From positions 62,637,554 to 62,701,553 of the forward strand of contig OX485803.1 in assembly GCA_950295325.1 (NCBI GenBank): a stretch of DNA of 64,000 bases, written 5' to 3'. The DNA is from Polytrichum commune. Its lineage: Eukaryota; Streptophyta; Polytrichopsida; Polytrichales; Polytrichaceae. A program made the translations under genes and the position numbers. The notes under the pieces are model-generated. The model made no database searches, had not been told where the DNA came from, and saw only the letters and a program-made list of their open reading frames with translations. Positions 48,001-64,000 of this stretch are shown here, piece after piece (the stretch's first letter is position 1; each line of letters opens with the position of its first letter).

Positions 48001-49085
48001 CCACACGGCCTAGAACCACCTACCCAATCATTTGAAACTGAAATTGTTTGGCTATACCAAAGATACAAATACCGTATTCCAAAAAATAACCCACTTAAAC
48101 GTGCCCAATACACAATACCATCCCCAATACTGGATTTCCTAATAACATCATTCAATATCAATCACTCATACTTCTCATCCCCAGTTACATGCCCTACACA
48201 ATTCACCCAATTCTACTCACCATTCTCACGGGACAAAATATTTGGATCCCTAGGGAAAGCATTTGACCAAAAATAAAAGGGAATTGGTTATGCTCACCCC
48301 CACAATGCAACAGACTTACAACAAGCCATTCACTGGGCCCGCATTGCGGCCAAAAACGACCCAAATACAATCACTATACTCATTTCCCAAGATATTGACT
48401 GGTACCAAAATTACAACCCGTATACCGGCCCATTCCCGGATACACACATCATTGCCCACTTCGCCGCAGATACCATCACGTACGAAGAACCCATAATACC
48501 TCCTGAACTCAATATCACGAGGAAAGAATTATCAACACTACGAATATTCTGCATCCACCACCAAAACAACAACATTGGCATCCACGAACAAATGAGCCAA
48601 CTTACTGACATAGTAAATAATCTCCAAATATTACAAATTCACACACAAATTGCGCCACCCACCCCTCTAAATACCGCCGTCAATCCTAGCAAAAAATGGT
48701 CTAAATTAAACTATCCAAATACGCCCGCAAATAATAACATGCCTATCCCACAACTCCCAAACTACCAAACAAACTTACCACTAAAATTCCATCCTCAATT
48801 CAGCTACTATATTGATGGCTCCTTTATGAATCCCAAAGAAATCAACCCTGGAGTATGGAGAAGAGAAAGAGTTGGATATGGTATCTATAGCCCCAAGGGC
48901 CTCAATATCCCCAAAAGACTACATGGTCACCAAAACATATTACGAGCAGAAATGATAGCTATACACAAAACATTAAGAATCATCAACACACAATACCCTA
49001 ATGAACCCGCATACATATTTACCGATAGTCTAAACGTATTACACCTACTTACACTACTACAGAACACGTCTTTTACAACTGGGTT
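45050..49085 (+). mobile_element. Non-LTR retrotransposon (LINE) with reverse transcriptase and RNase H, decayed
   Basis: Across frames: a linker with NNKAPGPD (45590), the RT region with SWKTSLTILLYKKGDP, then KPIALANTIYKI, LYIDFKNAFVSI, GTIQGDTLSPYLF and YTDD (the catalytic box, usually YADD), then thumb. About 1.2 kb of unassigned coding-like sequence follows (47900-48600), then RNase H (YYIDGSF, ILRAEMIAIHKTL, FTDSLNVL). Stops at 45627 and 46244 and several frame changes make it non-functional. The plus strand is strongly A/C-rich, unlike its neighbours. The RNase H breaks off near 49085, where CACTA-type sequence begins. No endonuclease was seen; the 5' end is truncated. Confidence 0.85.
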
Positions 49086-50358
49086 TTTCAACTTCCACAA
49101 GTGAGAAAACTCGGACTTTACTAACGTGGAAAACGACCAGTCGCTTCAGACAAGCAGTAAAGTGTCGTCATAGTCATGTCGGACAGGGCGTTCCCAATGG
49201 AATCGTTCCCAATGGCAGTGAAGTTTGAGGTGCTCCAAGGCTTTACTACTTAAAGTAAATGTCCTCCTTTACTCCCCCTCGTCAATAATAGTACAATAAG
49301 ACACAAGTTTATATTACTAGGTCCAGTGGACTAGTGGTACTAGCACCAGTCATGTATGGTGATTGCACTTCACTACACAAAGTGAGAATATGTAAAATGC
49401 CAATACATACATTCCATTTTGGCCCTTAGCATTAAGAACGTGCTTGCAACAAATATCTTTTCACGTGGCGATAATTAGGTCAATTAATTCTCACACATTA
49501 CTGTCTCCCGTTATCGCGGACAACAAACCGGGGATTCACTAACGTTGCGTAGTAAGCGTCTGTAACTGCTAATAGTAAATATATACAATGAATGCTCATT
49601 TTTCTTACTACATATCGTAATATCCATTTCACTGAATTGAGTAATGTTTACATTAACCAAGTAATTTGTGCCTACGTTGTGAGGTCCTGTAGTTGTCGTT
49701 TGTAATTATTATGTATTACTAGTAATGAAGTGCATATAACTTTGCCAAGTGACATGTTTTGTAATGATAATTACTATCTTTACTGTATCAAGTAACAAGT
49801 GGTTCACTTCACACAGTGATACGCTTATGGAATGCACATTATATTGCCAATGGTCATACTAGGCAATTACTCTACGTGGTAAGCGTCTGTGACTATCCAG
49901 AGTGGACGAATATGGAAATGGCGTATATATCTTACTTGGCGTAGTCATAAATACTTTACTATGAAAGTATTGTGGACAACTAACCTTGGTGCTTTCCCTA
50001 CTTTGTGAGGTCATGTGGTTTACTTATGTATTTAAGGTTTATTACTAGTAGTGAAGTTCAAGTCCACTTAGCAGAGTGCCATGTTTATGATGCAAATGAT
50101 TTCGTTTACTGGATCTACTAACCAAGGATGACTCAACATAGTCATATGTTGAGAACATGCACAAATGTTATGCACAAACTGAGTTATGATGTTCAAAAAC
50201 CCAACTCATGTTCATATAATAGTGTATCATGAATGTTTCACAACTTGCTACTAACAATGGTAATCATTGAACTCCATAGGAGTAAATGTCTAAAAATCAG
50301 CATAGGTTTACATATCCACTTCACGCTCACGTAGCCGCACACAACCTTACACACTCAC
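49086..50358. mobile_element. CACTA-type end region with repeated short motifs
   Basis: Non-coding. Variants of gtagtaagcgtctgtaactg occur at 49548 and 49880, with relatives at 51128 and 52771, plus many tagtaatg, cttactac and cttcactgtg words. Short motif arrays of this type are typical subterminal or intronic sequence of CACTA elements. I could not identify the exact terminus. Confidence 0.5.
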
Positions 50359-50871
50359 TTGACCAAAGAATGAAATGGCCCTTCGCTTGGCCAATTGTAG
50401 TGACAGGAGGATCGTCTCCATTGAGAGGTTCAAGTAGGGGATAGTCGTCTTGATAGGACTCCGTAATTGTCAACGAAACATACATCTTGCCAATCACCTT
50501 TCCGTGCAACATACCACCCGCTACATTCTGAATAACACCCTTGGCAATATGCTTGGCCTTCGAATCCTCCTCTTCATAGCCACACAAGTATACCACATCC
50601 CCCATTGTTTGCACAATTGCGACAACCACAAGTTAGTGTTAAGAATATAATATTTTTTGGGTTGCGAGTGGTCCAATCATTGAATACTGCAATGTCCATA
50701 ACATGTGCTTACCAATTCATAAGTGGGCTGACTTTTCTTTGGAGCCTTCGTGGCAAGGGGGGGTTTATCACCCTGACGCTTATCCACCACTTCTTTGTCT
50801 CCTTCTTTCTCAATTTTCTTCGAGCCCTTTTTTAATGGGCTACACCTCAACTTGTCTGCAATGTTATTCAA
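50359..50871 (-). pseudogene. CACTA accessory gene, DUF8039-like exons
   Basis: Exon about 50871-50713 is Lys-rich (KGSKKIEKEGDKEVVDK) and ends at a GT donor. The exon from about 50620 to 50359 reads VIQNVAGGMLHGKVIGKMYV, then TTIGQAKGHFILW. This is the pattern of the DUF8039 domain found in plant CACTA-associated proteins (LHG near the start, TLGxAxGxFILWP at the end). The acceptor before it appears mutated (gtgcaa where gtgcag is expected). It follows the Transposase_24-like exons on the same strand and is probably part of the same gene. Confidence 0.55.
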
Positions 50872-51340
50872 CCATTTTAGCCTTACACTGAACCATTATT
50901 GCATTGGCAAACTGAATCAAATTCAAACACAGACCTAGTTTTAGCAAATGTAGCTGAGTCCTGGTTTAGGACATTTCTACAGCTCCATCTTGGTTTGCAC
51001 AACTTCCTACATAGATGTAGATATCTTGAAATCCACCTCTATTATCTAAACACTCCACGGCTTAGCTGATATCACATTACTGCATCTAGTAATGTAGGAC
51101 GACTATGTGGTAGGTCAATAACTGTACGTAGTAAGCTTCAATGACTACGGGTAGTAATAAAATAAAACTTTAAGGACATTATTGCATACTTGCTACAGCG
51201 ATACTTCACTGTGTATAGTTATGTTTACATAACTATATAAGTTAGCATAAAGACTCAACATAATCAAGTAAAGTTTTGATAAAGTGACCTTTCTGAATCA
51301 TTGGACCGGCCTCCAAAGTTAACTTCTCCACTTTGCTCAG

Positions 51341-52658
51341 TCATATGCGCTTTGGTTTAGGTCCCCTCTCAGTTTTCACATCCCCTTCGTGTGTCTTCAC
51401 ACCATCGTGAGATGTTGGCCTTCCAATTGATTGAACTGCCCCACTAGATACCTCTTGTGCCTGTGCATAACTCAACCACACACATGCCTAAGAGACAACT
51501 CAATTATTGGACACCAAACAAGGCTCTGAAATTATATTACAATGCACTTTGCGAATTGAACACATAGGTTGTGGAATGCCATAGTTCTCAAATTGCTCGC
51601 AAACTGAATTCATACCTGGTCTTGCTCCTCGTGTCCTGAGGATGCTTTTTGAGATCCGCAAGGGATCTCTGTACTCAACACAATAGGCTTCTCACCAGCA
51701 TTGCCAAAGTCAAGAACCTTGCTTACAGGGTCTCTGGACATAGAACGTGCAGTAGGAGACACACTCCTACGGGAGTTCTCCTTTCCTTTGTCATCATGAG
51801 GGGAAGGGGCTCCACGTGAGGGTCCACTCGCCATTCCTTCCACCGTGATGCCAAGCTTGGCCATCACGGCATCAAGCGAGGATTGCATTCTCATTTGCAT
51901 TATGTTTAATCGCTCATCTAATGCCCTCACCTCTGCCCTCACTTCCTCTATTCCAGAGTTGCTTGTGCGGCTTATATGCGGGGAAATACCAAATCCGCCT
52001 TCGTACTGGGCATCACTAACCCCCCCCCTTGACAAATTCGAAGACATCGGCCGGCCACCTCTCGATCGCGAGGTGTTCTTGTCCTTGACAAGCTCCACCT
52101 CCACCTCGTCCTAGCGGGGGTCCCTGTTCAGCTCCAAGGCCTGCACAATTGAATCACAAAGTCAAAAACCCAGGAACAATCAACGAAATTCAAATATTAC
52201 AGTGAGTTGCAAAACTAACTCAAGACTACTCACCAGCCGAGCTCGGACCTCCCCTTCGCTACGTCCAAAGGAAGAGACTTTTTTCACGCACTTCCTCGCC
52301 TCCCGCATCACATTTGCTTGCTCAATTTTGCGAGGATCGCGTGTCAGTTCAACCATGTTGAGCCAGTGGTCCAAGCGGATAGACTCAGGCCTGCATAAAC
52401 CTTTTGATATGCACATTTTCATCTGCGCTCTCTTACTTTTCAGCTGCTGACCTAGGTTAGATTTGAAAATTTCATACCTCAATACTCTCGTTTCTCCACA
52501 AGAGCCGCGATACTCCCAATTCTCCTTCATCCGTGTGAATACGTTATCGAGAGCTGTTTCGGACTGATCGTTCACGTTGTCCACGCTCCAGTCCAAATCG
52601 CTGGAGTAGCCTCGCAGCGCATTCAGCCACTGCGGCCTATAAACTCCACTGGGATTGC
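51341..52658 (-). pseudogene. CACTA accessory (TNPA-type) gene, Transposase_24-like exons
   Basis: Exons 52658-52234, 52140-51616 and 51460 to about 51341, with matching phases. The first carries a Trp- and Arg-rich region (RPQWLNALRGYSSDLDW, LDHWLNMVELT, ANVMREARKCV) typical of Transposase_24-like plant proteins. The second has a coiled-coil stretch (IEEVRAEVRALDERLNIMQM) and a Ser/Arg-rich tail. An in-frame TAG at 52113-52111 and a TGA at 51343 break it. Such accessory proteins bind element ends in characterised En/Spm systems. Divergent from the TNP2 gene at 61861. Confidence 0.6.
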
Positions 52659-53079
52659 CTACAAAAAATATTACGAATCAACAACAAACCTCCTTCAAAG
52701 TATAACAATATTCATATGTTATGCTGCATACAAATTACATTGTCACAAGTTGTAGTAAAAACTAACTCTACGTAGTAATCATCTGCGACTGCTAAGAGTG
52801 AATACATCTAGTAATGGGGTATATCTCTTACTTCATGGAGTGATAAACACCTTACTATGTCAAGTAATGTTGACAACAAGGTTTGGTATTACTACAAGTA
52901 GTGAGGTACATATCGAATTCGCTAAGTGTATAGAATGCAAATGAGTTCGGTTACTGTAACGAGTAACATGCATATTACTCAACTTAGTCGTATGGTTATA
53001 GCGATAGTTTTTGATGTTTGGATGCAATGACAAACATCTAAGGAACTTTGCATAAAATACTGGGTTGGCTATGGTTTAC

Positions 53080-54561
53080 CGTTATCGTCAAGATCGACAA
53101 CAAATCTTGGCTTTCCCTCCCGGGCTCTCTCATCGAATTCATCCCGGCATGCTTTATTCGCTGCCCTCCTCTTGGCCTTCATCTGCGAGTTGTGATTGGA
53201 AGTCCTTCGCATTGCAACTCCATCTTCTTCTTCGTCGCTGCTGTGCGCCCTCACGGAGTGGCGGCGTGATGTTAATGCCAACTCCCGTTTCATAATTAAC
53301 AATTTTTTTTTTCTATCTCTAAGGCTAGCTTGGCTGCACTACTATCCTTAGAAGGGTCTGGATCATCCCTCTGAGATTGCTTTCCTCGCACCCGGACATA
53401 GTCTCTCCCGTCCTCTACCAAGATTGGCTTGCTCCAATCGAAATCTTCTTCTTCGCCGTCCTCATCCTCTTCAGCCTCACGACGATCCTCCCAACCTTCC
53501 AAATCTTCAACAGGTCCTTTCCTCTTCCCTCTGCGAGGTGAGGCCATTTTCTTCTTCCTAAAAGTCCAGCTTCTAGGAAGTTCTCTCCTCTGCAAAAACA
53601 CCCAAACAATATTCTTATTGACTATACATTGTCACATCCAAGGGCACATAGAAATTCCCTACTGTGCATAGTTAAGGGGGTCAATTAGCATATAACTTTG
53701 CTTAGTAGAGTTCAACTATGTGTAGTAAGGTTCAACTGGACAAAGTAATGTGTACGACTAGACGCAGTGATATTCAATTCCAACTGACTACAACAACACC
53801 CACAACACTTATGAAGATTATGAATGCGTTCAATGCACGAAAGTGACTATCTTCAAGCATGCAATAATTAAAGTGACATATTCAGCCAGCGAATTAGATT
53901 ACTTACCGGTTTGCCTTGGGTTGCAATGGGTTTTCTGTGGTCTTCTTTTTCTTTTTCTTCTTCTTCTTCTTCTGATGATGATGATTCTACACTATAGTCT
54001 ATGTCCTTATCAATTTTATGCTCACTAGATACACCATCTTCCTTGCTACTCTCCCTTTCCTCTATATGCGTTGATACTAATGGTTTAGTTGACAACCTGG
54101 CACTCCTCCTGGGTGGCTGAAGGGAATCTGATACCGTAGTCCTGGCATCCTCGAAAGTATTAGCAAGGAGATCTTGCATTTTGGCTAGCAAAGACGAATT
54201 GATTGCGGGAAATTTGTGAACCTCTAAAAACAAAGTCTTCACGTCTTCATCGCTCAATGTTGCTATTTCTCTAAGTAAAATTTTCAGCTTAATCTCCATA
54301 ATATTTGGTTGACAGTTGGATAGCTGCGACAAATGAACTAGGGTGAGGGTTCGAATTTAAGGTTATAAATTTTAAGTGTAAACAGTTCTCAAAGTAGACT
54401 ACAATCTCAAGCATACCAACAAGGATGGAAGTTTACCTCTTCAAAATAGCTGCCGGTTGCACCGAAGCCGCCAATGCAAGAAGTCCCAAGGATTCCAACT
54501 TCCTTCTGTTCGCTTCAATCTTAGAACGCCTTAGTCGCTCGTATTCGGACTCCACTTCCAT
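53080..54561 (-). pseudogene. CACTA accessory gene, N-terminal exons
   Basis: Exon 54323-53907 (acceptor cag at 54326-54324, donor CCG/GTAAGT) encodes MEIKLKILLREI from 54299, then PPRRSARLS and an acidic Ser/Glu run. Exon 53589-53080 follows in phase (RRELPRSWTFRKKKMASPRR, then acidic and basic patches). It contains a frame change at a run of A near 53306, beyond which the frame reads RRHSVRAHSSDEEEDG and joins in phase to the exon at 52658. A separate exon at 54561-54437 (MEVESEYERLRRSKIEANRR) matches the start of many plant Transposase_24 proteins, but its phase does not fit. Nuclear-protein-like composition. Confidence 0.5.
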
Positions 54562-56602
54562 AAAATAAGCACACTACATATGATGGAGGACCAGATTGAA
54601 GTCTACTTCACACGAACTTCATTGCTTCTAATTCTACCTCCTGGCACTCACCACAAAAGATGCACCACATTACATATTGGAGACCAATGTAACTGGACCC
54701 TTAAAGATCAACATTCTAACCCAAGTCTTTCTATAAACCACTCAATTATAGGTGTCCAGTTAGGAAGAGTGACCATATAATGCCCACATACCTTAGTGAT
54801 GCAAGGCTGATATGTCACCGAACTGAAGCCATCATATCAACACCCAAGTGAGTAATGCAATCTAGAATCCCAAAAAAGTAGCAAACAGAAAGAAAGTAGA
54901 GACTTCTGCTGTCACTTGTGCTAGCTTAAACTTGTGCTTCCATGAGAGATTTCATTCAGGAAATAAACCACAACGATTCACACCTTGAATTTCCTCACCA
55001 TCTGCGACATGCAATGACTTACTTAATCTAATTTGCTACACATTCTTCAAGTCGCATTGTTCTTTGATGCAATGTGATTGAGTCAAAGTAGGTCATCTTC
55101 AGGTTCCAACAACCCAAGTGCTTGAACACTGAAAGGTGTACAGAAGTAGCACTGTGCTTCATCATATTAAGGACCCACTCACCTTTGTTGCCACAAACAT
55201 TCCCCATAAAGAGCCCCTTCTCTTATGGAACCAACAAAGAAAATCACATTTCCTAAAGACACAAAGCCCCATCCAGGACGGGTTTAAATGCTATCGAAAC
55301 TGATTATGTACATAAGATAACTATAAATTGATTATATACATAAGAAGGTGGTACGTTCATTTTTGTCAACAACACGATTTTAATAGAATTTTGCTTGATA
55401 TGATATTTAATATTTGTTTCACATATCAAACACGCACACGAAAAAGGAACATGACATCAAAAGAGGGATCCAGACAACATCATTCTTATGTGAGGATTCC
55501 AAAAATCTACAACAAAGACATGGTTAAAAGACTCACATGAAACTTTGTACTTTTTAATCAGATGCATAGGGGTTCATTTGAAATAAATCAAAACAGAGCA
55601 GAGCATCTATTTATCCATCAACCTGACAATTGACATCATAAGAGATGTACATGTTTGAGGATTCCCTTACCTCAAGCTTGCCACTTGAACCACGAGAGAG
55701 AGGATATGTTGTGATGATTGAGAAGCTAGTCTGCAATGTATAACTTAGTAGTTGTCAGCTCTCAACCAACCAAGTGCTACGAACAAAATTTCTTCGGATC
55801 AGGAAGCAATGCAATAATACGGTACCAAACATTTCCACTTTTTCCACAGCACGAGGATTCTCACAAAAAGATAAACTCAACATAACAACACATTACACTT
55901 GCAATCGCTTCAGGTGCCCAACAAGATTTTCATTTATTAATCAACTTTAATGATTAATAGATATTGTGACTTTAGCACATTTGTTTTTCAATTACAATAT
56001 TCTATCACCCATAAAACAAAATAAAATTAACAGTGGTGTACGTATACACTACCGTGAGTGGGAGCCCATTCTACCTTTTCTTGATCATGTTTTACCAAGC
56101 TTCTAGGTAAGGTTACTTCTTTTCGAAAGGTGGACTCCTTACTGTCATCCATATTAATATGTTTGAATCACAAAAAAGTGATGGATAAAGTGATCTGAGT
56201 GTTTATGTACATACAATATACAAGATTTTATTGATAACTATTCTTCCAAAATGCTTACTATGCTTGTTTGTAGCTCATGCTCTGAAATAGAAAGTTCAAC
56301 TGTATGGATGTGATCTGTGATTTTGTGTCAGCAAGTTTGCTTCATAAAAGTTTCGGAAATCAACCATGCACTGTACACTTTATGCATAATCTTGAAAATG
56401 CAGAATATATTTAAGACAAAGTAAGAGTAGAACCACCTGAGTTGACTATCTTCCAGCCATATTATTTCTATCAAAATTTTATCAGAATCTCTGTTGAAAA
56501 GTAATGTTTTGACTGCTTGCCTGCGTTCCATCAAGTAATGCGACTTTAGTATCTTCAACTGGCTGGTTCCTTTTAATCTTTGGAGGACCAGATATACAAA
56601 CC
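54562..56602. other. No recognised gene
   Basis: Lacks the tagtaatg-type CACTA motifs, so it may be host sequence on the 3' side of the IFT20-like gene. AT-rich with only short ORFs. Confidence 0.4.
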
Positions 56603-57344
56603 TTAAACTTGCAGGCTTGAATTTGACAGACGAGCAATAGTGATTTCTTGCTCTTGCTTCACCACTAGCAGTGATTCGTACTCAGCATTTAGCCTCTGCC
56701 TCGAAACACAAAATAACGAAGAGAGTGATTTTTCAGTTCATGTCCTTATGTCGCAGAACACCAACCTTGGAACAAAGGACTTCTCAATGCTTGAAAGTTG
56801 ATCAGAGGAGGATAACCACCCCTGCTTGAGGAGAATTACTTTGAAAAGAGTGTAAAGGGGAAACAACTGATTTACAGGGGAAAGTCGCCACCCCAGGGCA
56901 TGCATGAATCTCTGGACAAAATATTAAAAATCCAAAGCAATTACAGCATGGTGCAGAAGACATCACGGTATTTGATCAACTTGGTTGACTGCCACAACCT
57001 AGTTGATGTTAGTAAGGACATGACATAATAGGAGCATTGAGGATTGCTGACGAGGATATAACACACAACAATTTCTAAGTTCATCTACATTAGTGAGCAC
57101 ACATGGATGGCACGAGAGAGAATAACCCAATTCACGGAGAAGAAAATTCATATGTTGCAGCTTCAGGAATTTATACCTCCAGTTGCTCTTCTTTGTAAGC
57201 AATCAAGATTCTTTGATCTCGTAGCTTTGCAGACCTTGTTTCAATCTCTGCAGACACCAAGTTGCGCATTCCAACAGCAGAGAGTTTAGCAGTCTCTATC
57301 TGCTGCGCTTTTTCACTCACTTGATCCAGCAATTGCTTAACCAA
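56603..57344 (-). CDS. IFT20: Intraflagellar transport protein 20 (IFT20), last two coding exons
   Basis: Exon 57344-57177 (56 codons) and exon 56695-56603 (30 codons plus TAA) join in phase 0 with GT-AG borders. The joined product reads KAQQIETAKLSAVGMRNLVS, then KEEQLE, then RLNAEYESLLVVKQEQEI. This matches the C-terminal coiled coil of IFT20 (KxxAIGxRN and the AEYESL region). IFT20 is a small coiled-coil subunit of the IFT-B particle that builds cilia; in plants it is kept only where sperm have flagella. The N-terminal third (about 45-50 residues) should lie upstream but I could not identify those exons in 57345-59000. A possible 5' UTR exon with donor ctaag/gttag ends near 58912. No break is visible in the two exons. 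Confidence 0.72.
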
Positions 57345-59500
57345 CTGCCGCCATACCAAACATGGCCACAGAAAGGTCAAGGAACTTCAGGTCACTGAAG
57401 TGCAGACTCTCAAAAATGTTCAACACAAGCAGATTTGCTTTGGAAGACATGATTAAGGAGGGTTTGAATTATGGCAAAGCCATACGCAATCAGTCCAAAA
57501 ATGTAGACATTCAACATGACTTTTGGTTGGAGTTGGTTGTTTTTGCGTACAACACCTTCCATGTTTGGTAAGTTTGCAGTGCATCCTTGGAGGTAGTGTG
57601 GAGGTTTGAATGAAGAACATTCTATGCTCACAGGTGCCAAAATAGGTTGCTCTTCATTCAAACTCGAACACCACCTCCTCGCATGCATCAACAGTGGAGA
57701 TAAATTAATATTGTTGTATGCAAATCAACCAGTCTGAGATTTCTCGATTAACCTACATGCTCTACTGGTTCAAGCATATACAACATGGTGTATTGCATGG
57801 GAAGAACATTCAGACGCAATGGATAAAGCATTACAGGTGAGAAGGCAAGAAGCTTACAACCGTCCAGTTTTCCATAGAGCAGATACACCAAGGGCAAAGT
57901 CATCTAAGAGACTTCCCAAGTGAGAACAATAATGTCAGACCAATCCGCATTCCATATGGAAAATGCTGGAAATGTTGGAGGAGTTAGGGCTTGAATTTCC
58001 ACATGGCAGAAGAAATACCAGAGTGACATAAAAAAATGTAGACTGCAAAAGAGCAAAAAACATCACTGACCAAATTCGGAAGCACCGAGGATCACCTACC
58101 ATTGCCACACTGATTTGCACTTGATGCATTTACAACCAAGGAGTGAGAATGACCTCTACTTCCACTCAAGGTGGCAACCTAAAATGTAGACAGGATACGT
58201 AGCACGAGACGAGCGTAGGCACACATTAACATGAAGCATTCCAAGAACCACAATTGAATCTCACAATCGTGCTGTTGGCTCACGAGCAGATGCACTTTAG
58301 GCAACGTCATTATAGCATCCATAAATAATGTATGTACCTCGTACTCATACATTCCATGAATGATGAGTGCACATGAAGCAAGGGCTTAAGGTAATTCTAC
58401 ACTCAACGATCGGAACGAAAAAATTGGCAAGAGTCATCCACATCGCAGGTGTGTTGGCCATGACCGATTCAAAGAACGCATGCATTCCGTTAATGATATG
58501 TACACACGAGGCACGGGCTACAGATCGAACGATAGATGAAGGTAATTCTAAACTCAACGATCCGTAGATGACCCTAAACCCTAAGTGCGCCCAAAAGCAG
58601 AACATACAACACTCAGAAGTATGTCACTCCGAATTGTGGACCACTTGCGACCGGATGGAGTCCATCCCGAGTCCACAAATGCGGCCTTTTTCGGACTCTA
58701 CCAGATGAAGCCCACAACTTGCACTAATAGCTGCAGTTATTTGAACGACTTCGGTACACAATGAACCTTCAAACATCTAGTAACACCCAAATCAACAGTT
58801 TTAACAAAAAAACAATTCCCTCAACACAAGAACACAATGTCTTTTCAACCACCAACAGCCAACATGTGAGTAGGATGGAGTATCCAAGCAGGTGGAGACA
58901 TAACTAACCTTAGCAAGGTTGAGCACTCCCAGCGCTCAGAAGCGAGAAAAGATGGGTCTCGAGGCGCAGAAGACTGGAGTGCAGTGCAAAATTGTGTTTG
59001 CTGAAACCCTAAGTGCGATATGGATGGGATGAACGAGGAATCGTATTCATCCTCCCAGATACTTCACTACTATATACGCCACCACAACCACCAGTTTTGT
59101 TCTGATTGCACGAGCTTCAAGCACCACTTCAGGACAAACACCGAGAGCATCCGGGGATGAACGTGGAGGCTAAGGGCGAATCAGAGCGTGGAAGCATGCG
59201 TAGTTGAGGGAAAGGATAGAATTCCCACAGGCGTTTCACCCTGGTGTGGTCGACAAGGCCCTTCCCGTATTGGAGTTTTTCTGCAGAGCAACACTCGGGA
59301 GATACCCTAAACCAGCCAGTGAAAGGCCTCAGAAAGGTTACATCTGCTCCATCCTCATGTAGTTTCCTCACACAGAATAGGTGTAGCTCGGTAATTGTGG
59401 ATGCGTAAGTATTTACACTCAATCATTGCATATAGTTACTATGGTCCCTTGTTTGTCAAGTCAAATACAGCCGGAAGAGGAAGTTCATGAGGTGGATATG
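57345..59500. other. Upstream part of the IFT20-like gene and unassigned sequence
   Basis: The minus strand near 59000-58912 (tagggtttcagc, then a pyrimidine-rich leader and a GT donor) resembles a plant 5' UTR exon. ORFs here (for example 57362-57571 plus and 58345-58605 minus) have no recognisable domain. An imperfect direct repeat of about 130 bp (58345-58425 and 58478-58555, word ctcaacgatc) is present. Confidence 0.4.
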
Positions 59501-60357
59501 TGCCAACTTGACTTTTCTGCACCATCCGTAACTACCCCAAATATGGTATTTAGTGTTTGATACACTAAATACAAACTTAAACACTAAATATCACTAACCC
59601 CAAAAGAAATAAGCCCCATTAAATGTACAATCAAACCCTAAATATCAACTATGGCAATATGTGGAAGTTATGCACAAATTTGGTGTTAGTATGGACATGA
59701 CATAATAGGATGGTAAAAACACTAAATATAATCAGACACTATTTAACATATTTAGTGTGCATTGTTTTCTCGAATTAGTGTAGGTTCCCATTATATCATA
59801 CGGGTAAGTATGCTTATTTATTTGGGTGAGAAAAGATGCTCCCCGTAAAAGCTATACCAACACGTAACTCCAAGTAGTAGCCCCCACTAAGCCGACAATA
59901 CAATGTACTCCAAGTTGTCCTAGTATTGTGGGGTACATGTATTTGTTACCCGTAATGAACATGAATAAACATATGTACTGCAAGAGAAACATCTTCTCTC
60001 ATCTAAAATTCCTAATTTTTCTATCACCAACTCTCATTTATCTATGCGGGCACATCTACCTAATATCTAGGTTTTGCAATGACTTCCTAGTTTATATCTA
60101 CAAATTAAATCGCAAAATGGTAAGTATCTAATTAACTGATGAACTACTCTAATTATATGATTTTGGTTATTAAATTACATATAACTACATACAGTTGTTG
60201 TTCACTGTGTCAACTACATACAGTTATTACTCAAGTACATACAGTTATTACTTAACTACAGTTCTTGTTCACTGTGTCAAGTAATGATAATCACTACATC
60301 AAGTAACGCTGTCCGTTTTAAGTAACGAGATTTTATTTGCTGAAATATAGATTCAAA
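59501..60357. other. CACTA-type spacer upstream of the SET gene
   Basis: 59541-59790 contains acactaaat/atttagtgt words like the MITE at 23308. From about 60180 arrays of acatacagttattact and caagtaatgataatcact resemble the motif arrays of 49-53 kb, suggesting that the same element family starts again here. The promoter of the SET/TNP2 transcription unit should lie here. Confidence 0.4.
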
Positions 60358-61240
60358 ATGGATGGATCAGCAAGGCGCGCAATGTTGGACCTGGAGTTAT
60401 GGAACTTGGAGGAAAAAGAAGCAGACAGACAAAGATTGGTTAAGTATCGATGCCCTTGTAGTATGTGTGCAGGGGGAAAGGTATTGTCTAGGGCAACCAT
60501 ACGAAAACATCTTCGTCGATACAAACGAGATCCCGCATTCACGAAATCCATATTGGTAAGTGCTATATTTGCGTTCATCGAATTCTATTGTTTTGTAGTC
60601 CAATAACTTTAATTTTGATGTTGCAACGATTCCATTCGTGTAGGCACAAAGAAGACCTTTTGTTGAGGAAGCAGCTAAGGCGGCCATGGAAGAGTTTTTT
60701 AAAGAGATGACAACCCCCACACCGTTTCATGAAAATAATCTTTACACTAATGAGGAGCTGAAATTGATGAATTGGAGGGTTGACAAATTCGATGGGCAGT
60801 GGTGTGATGCTCCCATACCAAAGTTTAGTACTTTCAACTTTCATGATAGAAAGTGGGAAGTGAAAATTTCTGGGTTTTTGTTCATGGGCTGGGGTTTATT
60901 TGCAATGGATCCCGCAAAAGCAGGCGATATCCTTTTGCCATTTGTGGGGCCTCAATACACTCGGACAGAATACCGCAAGATGATCAGTCTTGTACCCCGC
61001 TTCAAAAGCTATGTCCTTAAAGCTGAGGATGACATTTACATCGACGGGAGAGTGGAGAGGGGCAATGTTGCAGGATTTATTAATAGCTCCATAGGGCGAG
61101 AGGAAATCGGCAATGTAGTGTGGGAGTATAGTTTGGCTCCAAAGCCTTGGAACAATGACGAATGGGATTTTGTTATGACCATTGCATCAAGGGATATAGA
61201 AGTAGGAGAAGAGTTGTTTGCATATTACTCCGTGAATTAA
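60358..61240 (+). CDS. CACTA-associated SET-domain protein (Cys/His N-module fused to SET)
   Basis: Exons 60358-60555 and 60644-61240 (gt/ag, phase 0) give 264 residues. ATG at 60358 is chosen because the frame upstream has no ATG. Residues about 35-65 form a Cys/His module (CPCSMC, then RKHLRRYKRDP) like the N-terminal transposase-associated module of TNP2 proteins. Residues about 140-264 are a SET domain with its marks in order: GWGLFA (AdoMet-binding), Tyr-containing YVLKAEDD, GNVAGFINSS (FINHS motif, second His replaced by Ser), then DIEVGEELFAYYS. SET proteins methylate lysines, often on histones. There is no stop or frameshift. It lies 620 bp upstream of the TNP2 exon on the same strand. 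A captured gene or a regular element gene are both possible. Confidence 0.78.
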
Positions 61241-61860
61241 AGTTGTGTTATTTTCTCTAAAATATGTCGATCACGCACTTCATTGCATATTTGAATATCA
61301 TCTTGCATTACTTGACCTAGTGAACCCCAACTAAATACACTTCAAAGGACCATAACAGAACGTGTGAAGACAATTTAACCATCTGGATTCCTCATAACTA
61401 TACAAGGTTACTTTGCCGTCCCATGCAATGCAATCTTATTGTAGACACACATACCCGCTGAAAGTAATAAGGCATGTTGTGTTGGAGTGCTTTACTTGAT
61501 GCAGTAATTTGCAATACTGGACACAGTGAACAAGTACTGAATGAAGTTGAAAGTGTCAGAAGAGAACATGTGGAAGTAATGGTTCCTCTGGATTTGTTGT
61601 AAACATACAAGGTTTTTGAATCACGAGAGGTAATGGAATCTTGTTCCTGATGCATTTACATGTTCAACACCAGGAGGCTTCCTGTGCTGGATAGTAAGAT
61701 GTAGCGTAACACATTACTTGTCGTAGTGAATATCAAAGTAATGCTTGTGAAAGGAATAGAAGAGAACATGTGCGCCAAATGTAACCCACTAGATTCAACA
61801 TGTCTCACATTGAGTTACTAAGAGTAAATGAGTTGTTTCTTGTTGTTGATGCACATACAG

Positions 61861-64000
61861 GAGGTCAACAACGACATCTACACTGCTAATCGTGACATAT
61901 GGAATGCGACACAAGAAGGGAGCTACATGACGGTAGAAGCAAACAATGATACGGGAAGAGATGTAGATGGAGATTTATTACAAGAAACAAATACAGAAGC
62001 AGTGGAAGATAGGAGGGAGGGAGTGGAGGTAGTTCGGATGGTGAACGAGTGTTTCAAGAGGTATGATGGATTGCCCGGACACGCAAACACCACATCACGC
62101 AATGAGGGCATGGAGGAAGAAGACAAAGGAAGACAACAAGACGAGGACGAGATGGCCAACATGGAAGTACCTTTACTTGAAGAGAGCAATGAAGAAAATG
62201 ACGATAGTATGGAGGAATTATTGAAAGAAGCGAGAACTCCGCTCTTCAAGGATAGCCCCACCAACCGCTTGCAAGCTATCCTAATGCTCCTCAATGTATG
62301 CAACATTTTTGGAGTACCAAACGCATGCGTGGACGAGTTGCTCAAGTTGCTTAAACATGATCTACTCCCCAGAAAGAACACTTGCCCTCCTTCACATTAC
62401 GAGGCCAAGAAATTGGTGAGGAAGTTGGGTTTAAGCTACAACACTATTCATGCGTGCAAGAATGGTCATTGCTTGTTCAGGAATGAATTGAAGGACGCGA
62501 AAGAGTGTCCCCAATGCAAAGAATCGCGGTATATTCCCGGTAGTGAGAGCATTCCTGTGAAAGTGTTGCGACATTTTCCTCTTATACCTCGGTTGCTCCG
62601 AATGTACCGTTGCAAACGCCTTGCCGAGCTTATGACGTGGCATGTGGAGGGAAAAAGCAATGACAACAAAGTGAGATCGATAGTGGATTCAAAGGCATGG
62701 AAACACGTGGACGCAAGGTGGCCGGACTTTGCGAAGGAGCCAAGAAACCTACGTTTGGCACTAGCTTTGGATGGTGTCAATCCATTTTCTAACCAGTCTT
62801 TAAGTCATTCAACATGGCCAGTGGTATTGTTAAACTACAATTTACCACCATGGCTAGTTACGAAACGGTTTTTTGTAATGTTAACCCTAATCATTCCCGG
62901 AAAAGAAAGTGTGAAAGAGGAGAATATCCATGTGTATTTAGCACCCCTTATAGAGGAGCTTCAAAGGTTGTGGAAAGGGGTGATGGCAACAGATGGATCT
63001 GTTTTGGAGAAGGCGAGTTTAAGTGAGGGGAGTATTTATTCCACAAACCCAAATTTCAACCTTCGTGCGATTCTTATGTGGAGCATACATGACTTTCCGG
63101 CGTATGGGTTGCTTGCCGGACAAGTAACGAAGGGGTATAGGGATTGTCCCCCATGTGGGCCACATGTATCAACGAGGAGGTCCAAGTTGTTGGGGAAGAA
63201 CATTTACCAAGGTCATCGTCGTTACTTGGCAATGCACCATCCGTATAGACGATTAAAAAATAGTTTTGATGGAGAAGAGGATCACCGAGGTCCCCCGCGG
63301 GTAATGTTTGCACATGATCAATTGCGGTTTGCAAAACAAAAAGGAGATTGGTTGGCAAGCTCGACCGAAAACAAAGAAGGAGACAAACTGGATCCAATCC
63401 ACGAGCATGGAGTGAAGAGAAAGAATGCACTCTTTGCATTACCATATTGGAAGGTACAAACTAGCGACTTTTGTTTTACTTTGAGAAGTAATGCATGTCT
63501 ATTAACAGTAAATACACTTTACCGTTAGCGGTAATGCATAATGACTGTAGAAAGTAAGGGTTCGCTTATAAATGCATTTTCATTAATACTCCAATACTTA
63601 TACAAGTAATGGTATAGTCATATCGGATAACTATTGTTTCAACACTTTGCAACAGTTTATTATATGGCATTTAACAGCCAGTGCACTTACCCAAATTTTG
63701 TGTGCACCAACAGGGCCTTCTTATACGCAATATGTTGGATGTAATGCAATGCGAGAAGAACATAACAGAAAGTCTTATGAAAACCATATTTGGGGAGAAG
63801 GATACACTAAAGGTTCGCATGGATTTACAGGAAGCCAACATACGGCCGCATTTGTGGCCCATACCGGGGAGAAAACCAGGAAGCCTCATTTTGCCACAAG
63901 CCCCATATGTGCTCACAAAGAACGAGAAGGAGGTATTTGTGGATGTTGTGCGGCAATTGAAAACTCCAACCCACTATGTGGGCCAATTGCGGAAAAGAGT
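61861..64000 (+). CDS. CACTA (En/Spm) TNP2-type transposase, partial at window end
   Basis: Exons 61861-63453 and 63714 to beyond 64000 are both in phase 0 (acceptors tacag and caacag; donor AAG/gtaca). An acidic N-terminal stretch comes first. Then come HACKNGHCLFRNELKDAKEC with PQC (Cys/His site), the Transposase_21 core (LALALDGVNPF, then HDFPAYG and GYRDCPPCG), and LPYWK joined to GLLIRNMLDVMQCEKN in exon 2. The open frame extends upstream to 61828 only through intron sequence. Its first exon is not directly upstream; the 60358-60555 exon fits by phase. No lesions are visible, so this may be a live transposase. Confidence 0.88.

Follow-up and report, generated by a model that had tools for sequence, protein, structure and literature searches.

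Is a SET gene found in front of a transposase a stray piece of host DNA, or a working part of the transposon that carries it? This question is raised by positions 60358–61240 of the stretch of Polytrichum commune DNA analyzed here (64,000 nucleotides; hereafter, the window), where a first-pass annotation placed a two-exon gene with a canonical intron, joining a Cys/His module to a SET domain. Those coordinates are right: open-frame and splice-site reading gives a 264-residue protein in which a CPCxxC/HLR module is followed by a SET domain. Exon 1 (60358–60555, plus strand) begins with the ATG at 60358, comprises 66 codons that include the CPCSMC...HLRRYKRDP module, and ends at a phase 0 donor. 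Intron 1 (60556–60643, plus strand) reads GTAAG...GTAG, with the GT donor at 60556 and the AG acceptor ending at 60643. The SET exon (60644–61240, plus strand) consists of 198 codons and a stop, and its SET domain, described at the outset as complete, matches positions 1–104 of the 105 positions of the Pfam SET profile (39.1 bits; cut-off, 22.4).

A TNP2 gene follows the SET exon on the same strand (PF02992, Transposase_21; 224.6 bits; cut-off, 28.6). A spacer or intron extends from the SET stop to the TNP2 acceptor CATACAG (61241–61860, plus strand). The first large TNP2 exon (61861–63453, plus strand) has a phase 0 acceptor and an end, at a GT donor, predicted by eye; the next TNP2 exon (63715–64000, plus strand), whose start was likewise predicted by eye, is cut by the window end, and the gene runs on into the adjoining sequence (L031).

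The gene lies inside a CACTA element, as the first-pass annotation had proposed. The complete element is 17,098 bp long (G000:C1:62686605-62703702); it occupies 49052–64000 of the window and extends a further 2,149 bases beyond it. Its terminal inverted repeats begin with CACTA, the 24-base 5′ repeat CACTACTACAGAACACGTCTTTTA (49052–49075, plus strand) being mirrored by its exact inverse, which ends the element at L031 position 2149. The target-site duplication TTA is found on the left at 49049–49051 and on the right directly after the element (L031 2150–2152). Joining of the flanks gives a clean empty site, with one frame that stays open across all 1,448 bases used and contains an RNase H domain (52.8 bits); the CACTA element was thus inserted in an apparent retroelement gene, and its borders are exact. 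This retroelement-like open frame is made up of the window flanks of 49049–49051 and L031 2150–3366.

The left arm of the element contains minus-strand open frames (51610–54353), probably belonging to one multi-exon gene, which have no Pfam match over the cut-off; a part of them (51810–53297, minus strand) is partly conserved in another copy (L018). Going by their place only, these frames are likely to be the TNPA counterpart. Another copy, 17,111 bp long, shares this gene and these ends (C1:14360080-14377190). More broadly, element repeats flank at least 13 of the 25 family-A SET copies (the window's own family; see below) on both sides within 40 kb and at least 4 of the 25 on one side, as counted from 100 of 175 repeat places. 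The widest of these repeat pairs, 28–39 kb apart, may hold nested insertions. Genome-wide, the element's ends also recur as many further pairs spaced by about 5 kb (for example, G000:C2:3737369-3742771), and these are probably non-autonomous relatives of the element.

A genome search with the SET exon gave 204 candidates, and the 150 that were scored, some of them pieces of one copy, fall into at least five families (A, B, C, D, and G), so that other CACTA copies with the SET exon do exist in this genome. Identity to the window SET exon is 75–98% among open full copies of family A, 53–55% in family B, 44–49% in families C and D, and 41% over part of the length in family G. PF00856 matches all 14 rows of an alignment over these five families (E up to 0.01; window row, 39.9 bits). 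Since this pair of exons occurs at many places in the genome, the joining of exon 1 to the SET exon is not due to chance. Among 70 near-full SET exons, hand-picked from the search matches, 46 have no stop and 24 have stops; in simulation, random substitution at 34% of sites left the frame open in 5 of 5000 trials. Not every copy has an intact exon 1: it was missed by a motif scan in three loci (L018, L022, L023) and is disrupted in a fourth (L004).

Family G (G000:C3:52944000-52950600; L098, L099) has a much longer SET exon of 325 residues with a proline-rich part, preceded by a CPCNDC exon and followed by TNP2; its three copies are 98–100% alike and are therefore probably recent. The Pfam SET search of the genome also returned matches far stronger than that of the transposon, probably host SET genes. 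In viral contigs, 46 stretches fit a pattern for SET-exon relatives and none was confirmed. As a separate observation, SAM_LFY has four matches in the genome (G000:C1:40569930 and three other places); flowering plants usually have a single LEAFY gene, and the number here is larger. These matches, together with what we take to be a LEAFY-type DNA-binding exon, are indicative of a land plant.

The question of how the SET exon is tied to the transposase depends on the origin of exon 1. The Cys/His module had been annotated as of the TNP2 type, and in profile comparison this is borne out, as the exon 1 profile aligns with the TNP2 N-terminal module of other CACTA elements in this genome (hhalign probability, 97.5%; E, 8.7e-12); in the Pfam search, however, exon 1 of the window is only a weak match to PF13963 (Transpos_assoc; 20.5 bits, under the cut-off of 27.7), and exon 1 of families B–F scores 20.6–24.2 bits against the same cut-off. 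In three distant CACTA elements (L093, L094, L097), a single open frame encodes both the module and TNP2, and the module within the TNP2 frame passes the PF13963 cut-off in both cases tested. Since exon 1 is homologous to a module inside TNP2 frames, this module appears to be the transposase's own N-terminus, which would place the SET exon in the first intron of TNP2. The first-pass annotation was therefore right that TNP2 comes next, but the SET exon does not seem to belong to a separate gene ahead of it, and exon 1 looks like TNP2's own first exon, a point that the annotation had missed.

Genome-wide positions of the three parts are consistent with this arrangement. A search with exon 1 gave 441 candidates, of which 150 were scored; for 99 of them, a SET match was scored no more than 3 kb downstream in the same orientation, and the other 51 have none in that range. 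Four of the lone exon 1 loci were read: three (L065, L066, L067) consist of the module exon and then TNP2, with no SET between them, and the other (L068), a degenerate copy, still shows remains of SET, which means that the 51 SET-less matches include some misses. Of 643 TNP2 candidates, 150 were scored; a scored SET match precedes 73 of these 150 domains in the same orientation at no more than 4.5 kb, with a start-to-start distance of 1.3–3.2 kb, and none of the 150 has a scored SET match that close but placed otherwise. No SET exon was seen by reading upstream of TNP2 in L075, L077, and L078 (as L093, L094, and L097) or in L082 and L083 (as L095 and L096). In one of these (L096 2–428; G000:C7:22668300-22670844), an open frame upstream of a family-C-like TNP2 without a visible SET exon contains what looks, by eye, like a PHD finger.

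The exon 1 donor is in phase 0, and so are the SET and TNP2 acceptors in families A, B, and G, with the result that exon 1 could join either SET or TNP2. The TNP2 acceptor as read in the SET-less families E and F is also in phase 0, and that of families C and D was not readable from sequence. Between subgroups A1 and A4, conservation is 0.86–0.89 in exon 1, 0.80–0.82 in SET, 0.79–0.80 in TNP2, and 0.69–0.76 in the intron; intron 1 is less conserved than both flanking exons, and the SET–TNP2 spacer is also less conserved and has many gaps. In the comparison of the window with another copy (L012), the SET and TNP2 exons are slightly better conserved than exon 1. A search for genomic copies of the spliced exon 1–SET or exon 1–TNP2 junction of family A found none, a result that is neutral for splicing. 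A shared first exon with two alternative continuations would be the simplest reading of these data, and the gene structure so proposed is held here with high confidence.

The history of the SET exon is less straightforward. In TNP2 trees, family D groups with the SET-less families E and F (99/96), and families A and B form a weak group (82/80) in only one of the two trees. The TNP2 tree needs two to three changes of SET presence and its deep forks are open, so one gain followed by losses and several gains both fit and cannot be told apart.

The preserved open frame had suggested selection from the outset, and the substitution pattern agrees. Of 60 fetched SET loci, 43 were retained as open copies, five having been left out beforehand and the rest for stops or failed reading. 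A codon model on 25 of these 43 gave an omega of 0.263 (lnL, −4495.2, as against −4611.7 at omega 1), a fit 116 log units better than the neutral one, although the use of open copies only favours a low dN/dS to some degree. Pairwise dN/dS of the SET exon is 0.16–0.21 between subgroups A1, A2, and A3 and subgroup A4, 0.32–0.61 among A1, A2, and A3, and 0.20–0.35 within A2, A4, B, and D. Subgroup A1, to which the window copy belongs, has an internal value of 0.92, from few changes, and family C one of 1.01. Between-family distances are saturated at synonymous sites. These values indicate that the SET exon has been under past purifying selection over its longer history, and that some fresh copies evolve neutrally or have too few changes to judge. 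Constraint over the longer history together with neutral-looking fresh copies is what is expected of a transposon gene that is selected while the element is active.

If the SET exon has been selected, is its product an enzyme? The nearest solved relatives by sequence are SET1, ASH1L, and MLL (E about 1e-5). The SET motifs had been described as preserved, which applies to Asn147 and Tyr195 (SET-exon numbering), the MGWGL motif, and several Trp residues, all invariant in 29 of 29 aligned exons. Asn147 and Tyr195 align to yeast SET1 residues and are both present in family G as well; we take them to be the AdoMet-side Asn of the NHxC motif and the catalytic-type Tyr, respectively. It does not apply to the NHxC His, which is Ser in 28 of the 29 exons, Asn in one, and His in none. 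In family G, the motif is GRG in place of MGWGL, and the residue after the Asn is Ser. In most SET enzymes the residue that follows this Asn is His, and it matters in SET7/9; PR/SET enzymes, including some active ones, are without it. Because the His is absent from every aligned exon, the protein may have little or no activity. No profile match was obtained for the Cys-rich pre-SET and post-SET regions of the SUV39 class, and no such Cys clusters occur in the 264 residues.

A structure model of the whole SET exon was set aside (mean pLDDT, 41.8) in favour of a model of the 142-residue SET core (pLDDT, 69.8), in which two of five models are good and the middle part is poor. With this core model, Foldseek finds SET and PR domains in loose superposition (TM about 0.4–0.5; rmsd, 9–12). 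In VIA-align, all of the best 50 matches listed are SET or PR domains (Z, 9.7–11.1), the best being SET8 (Z, 11.1; rmsd, 2.1; 84 aligned). The core is thus predicted to adopt a SET/PR-type fold, and the exon 1–SET product is somewhat more probably an enzyme than not one.

The explanation that best accounts for these observations, and that we regard as fairly probable as a whole, is that a CACTA (En/Spm) lineage has the SET exon as a permanent piece of its coding sequence, situated within TNP2 intron 1 and serving the element. A single promoter and a single first exon would give rise to two products through alternative splicing. Joining of exon 1 to the TNP2 exon would yield the transposase, whereas joining to the SET exon, used as an alternative last exon with its own stop, would yield a short protein composed of the transposase N-terminal module and a SET domain. 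Through the common module, the SET protein would be directed to the DNA or partners that the transposase also targets, where it would methylate histones (or TNP2 or TNPA) for the benefit of the element. This benefit would most likely be that the chromatin of the element is kept open by an active histone mark set near it. Plants silence transposons via histone and DNA marks, and few counter-strategies of transposons are known. Anti-silencing of the element by the SET protein is a possibility to which we give somewhat less than even weight. More tentatively still, the protein may be a self-guided histone methyltransferase, in which one splice-shared address tag serves both cutting and the deposition of an anti-silencing mark on the element's own copies. 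A CACTA lineage with a selected SET domain, linked to its transposase through an exon in common, would lend itself to testing whether transposons write histone marks for themselves, and would offer the design of a small, possibly sequence-directed methyltransferase.

Other readings of the same parts differ in what they make of the SET domain and of exon 1. The SET protein could be a regulator rather than an enzyme in use, competing or dimerizing with TNP2 to damp or time transposition, with the SET domain as a binding surface; the exon shared with the transposase and the absence of the NHxC His throughout the alignment would suit such a role, but a mere binding surface need not keep Asn147 and Tyr195, which are invariant even with family G included, and we consider this reading unlikely. 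Slightly less likely is an arrangement of two genes, in which exon 1 and SET form one and TNP2, lacking the module, uses a downstream ATG of its own. The SET exon does end in its own stop, internal ATGs do exist within the TNP2 exon, and the unread TNP2 acceptors of families C and D leave room for it; against this, the module exon still precedes TNP2 in relatives that have no SET, other CACTA elements have the module within the TNP2 frame, and the phases agree in A, B, and G.

It is very improbable that the SET exon is a piece of a host gene, picked up by accident and passively carried. Plant transposons often carry host fragments, and dN/dS is near 1 within A1 and C; yet the omega of 0.26 is far from neutrality, the same exon pair is present in families A–D and G, and the share of near-full copies that are open far exceeds what the simulation left open. 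The passive fragment was rejected on omega and on the number of open copies, and an isolated SET insertion in one element was rejected on the genome-wide SET-exon matches. Neither result that would have counted against the first-pass annotation, the absence of any further copy or neutral evolution, was obtained. The least credible reading takes the exon 1–SET product for a U-box type ubiquitin ligase fused to SET. PF04564 does exceed its cut-off of 21.4 in the spliced window protein (25.1 bits), in A4 (25.6 bits), and in B (28.2 bits), but the match starts only at profile position 15–16, families C and D stay under the cut-off (12.9–15.4), family E exon 1 joined to TNP2 has no match, and the exon 1 profile fits the TNP2 N-terminus, as described above. 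The U-box match at 60448–60706 grows when exon 1 is joined to SET, from 18.1 to 25.1 bits, and the family B score from 23.1 to 28.2.

The preferred reading, of a SET exon within a TNP2 intron, has partial counterparts in known systems. SETMAR of primates is a single host gene in which SET is fused to a mariner transposase; there, as here, SET is joined to transposase-derived sequence, but SETMAR is not a transposon's own replicated gene. Maize En/Spm has CACTA ends, a 3-bp duplication, and several products, TNPA and TNPD, made via alternative splicing of one transcript, and none of them contains SET. The element described here shares the ends and the 3-bp duplication; its alternative splicing is predicted, and SET is found only in it. 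The first-pass annotation knew of no described CACTA element with the present arrangement, and literature searches restricted to open-licence papers likewise brought up no CACTA/EnSpm element with SET.

VANC of the Arabidopsis VANDAL elements, which are a MuDR family (PMC12730594, in the part available), is an anti-silencing protein that induces loss of DNA methylation (PMC5735166, in the part available). Like the protein proposed here, VANC is an extra protein of a plant transposon directed against its own silencing and aimed at its own sequence; it acts through loss of DNA methylation, however, and the available part of the source names no SET domain for it (PMC5735166). TET/JBP genes are carried by fungal transposons, EnSpm families included (PMC12730594, same part). 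These elements resemble the present one in that a CACTA/EnSpm-type element carries an epigenetic enzyme, and they differ in that the enzyme is a DNA-modifying dioxygenase, the hosts are fungi, and a transposase intron is not mentioned for them in that part of the source (PMC12730594).

The closest parallel in content comes from Phytophthora, in which SET genes have been taken up by HarbingerS and MuDR transposons (Kojima and Jurka, 2014, as cited in the available part of PMC12730594). Both are cases of a SET gene of the histone-methyltransferase type borne by a cut-and-paste DNA transposon, and the pairing of a transposon with such a gene has therefore been described before. The Phytophthora systems, as far as that part of the source describes them, are Harbinger and MuDR elements in an oomycete, whereas the element of Polytrichum commune is a CACTA/TNP2 element, with PF02992 following the SET exon. 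The presence of SET genes in these unrelated oomycete transposons as well suggests that SET has been recruited repeatedly by mobile DNA.
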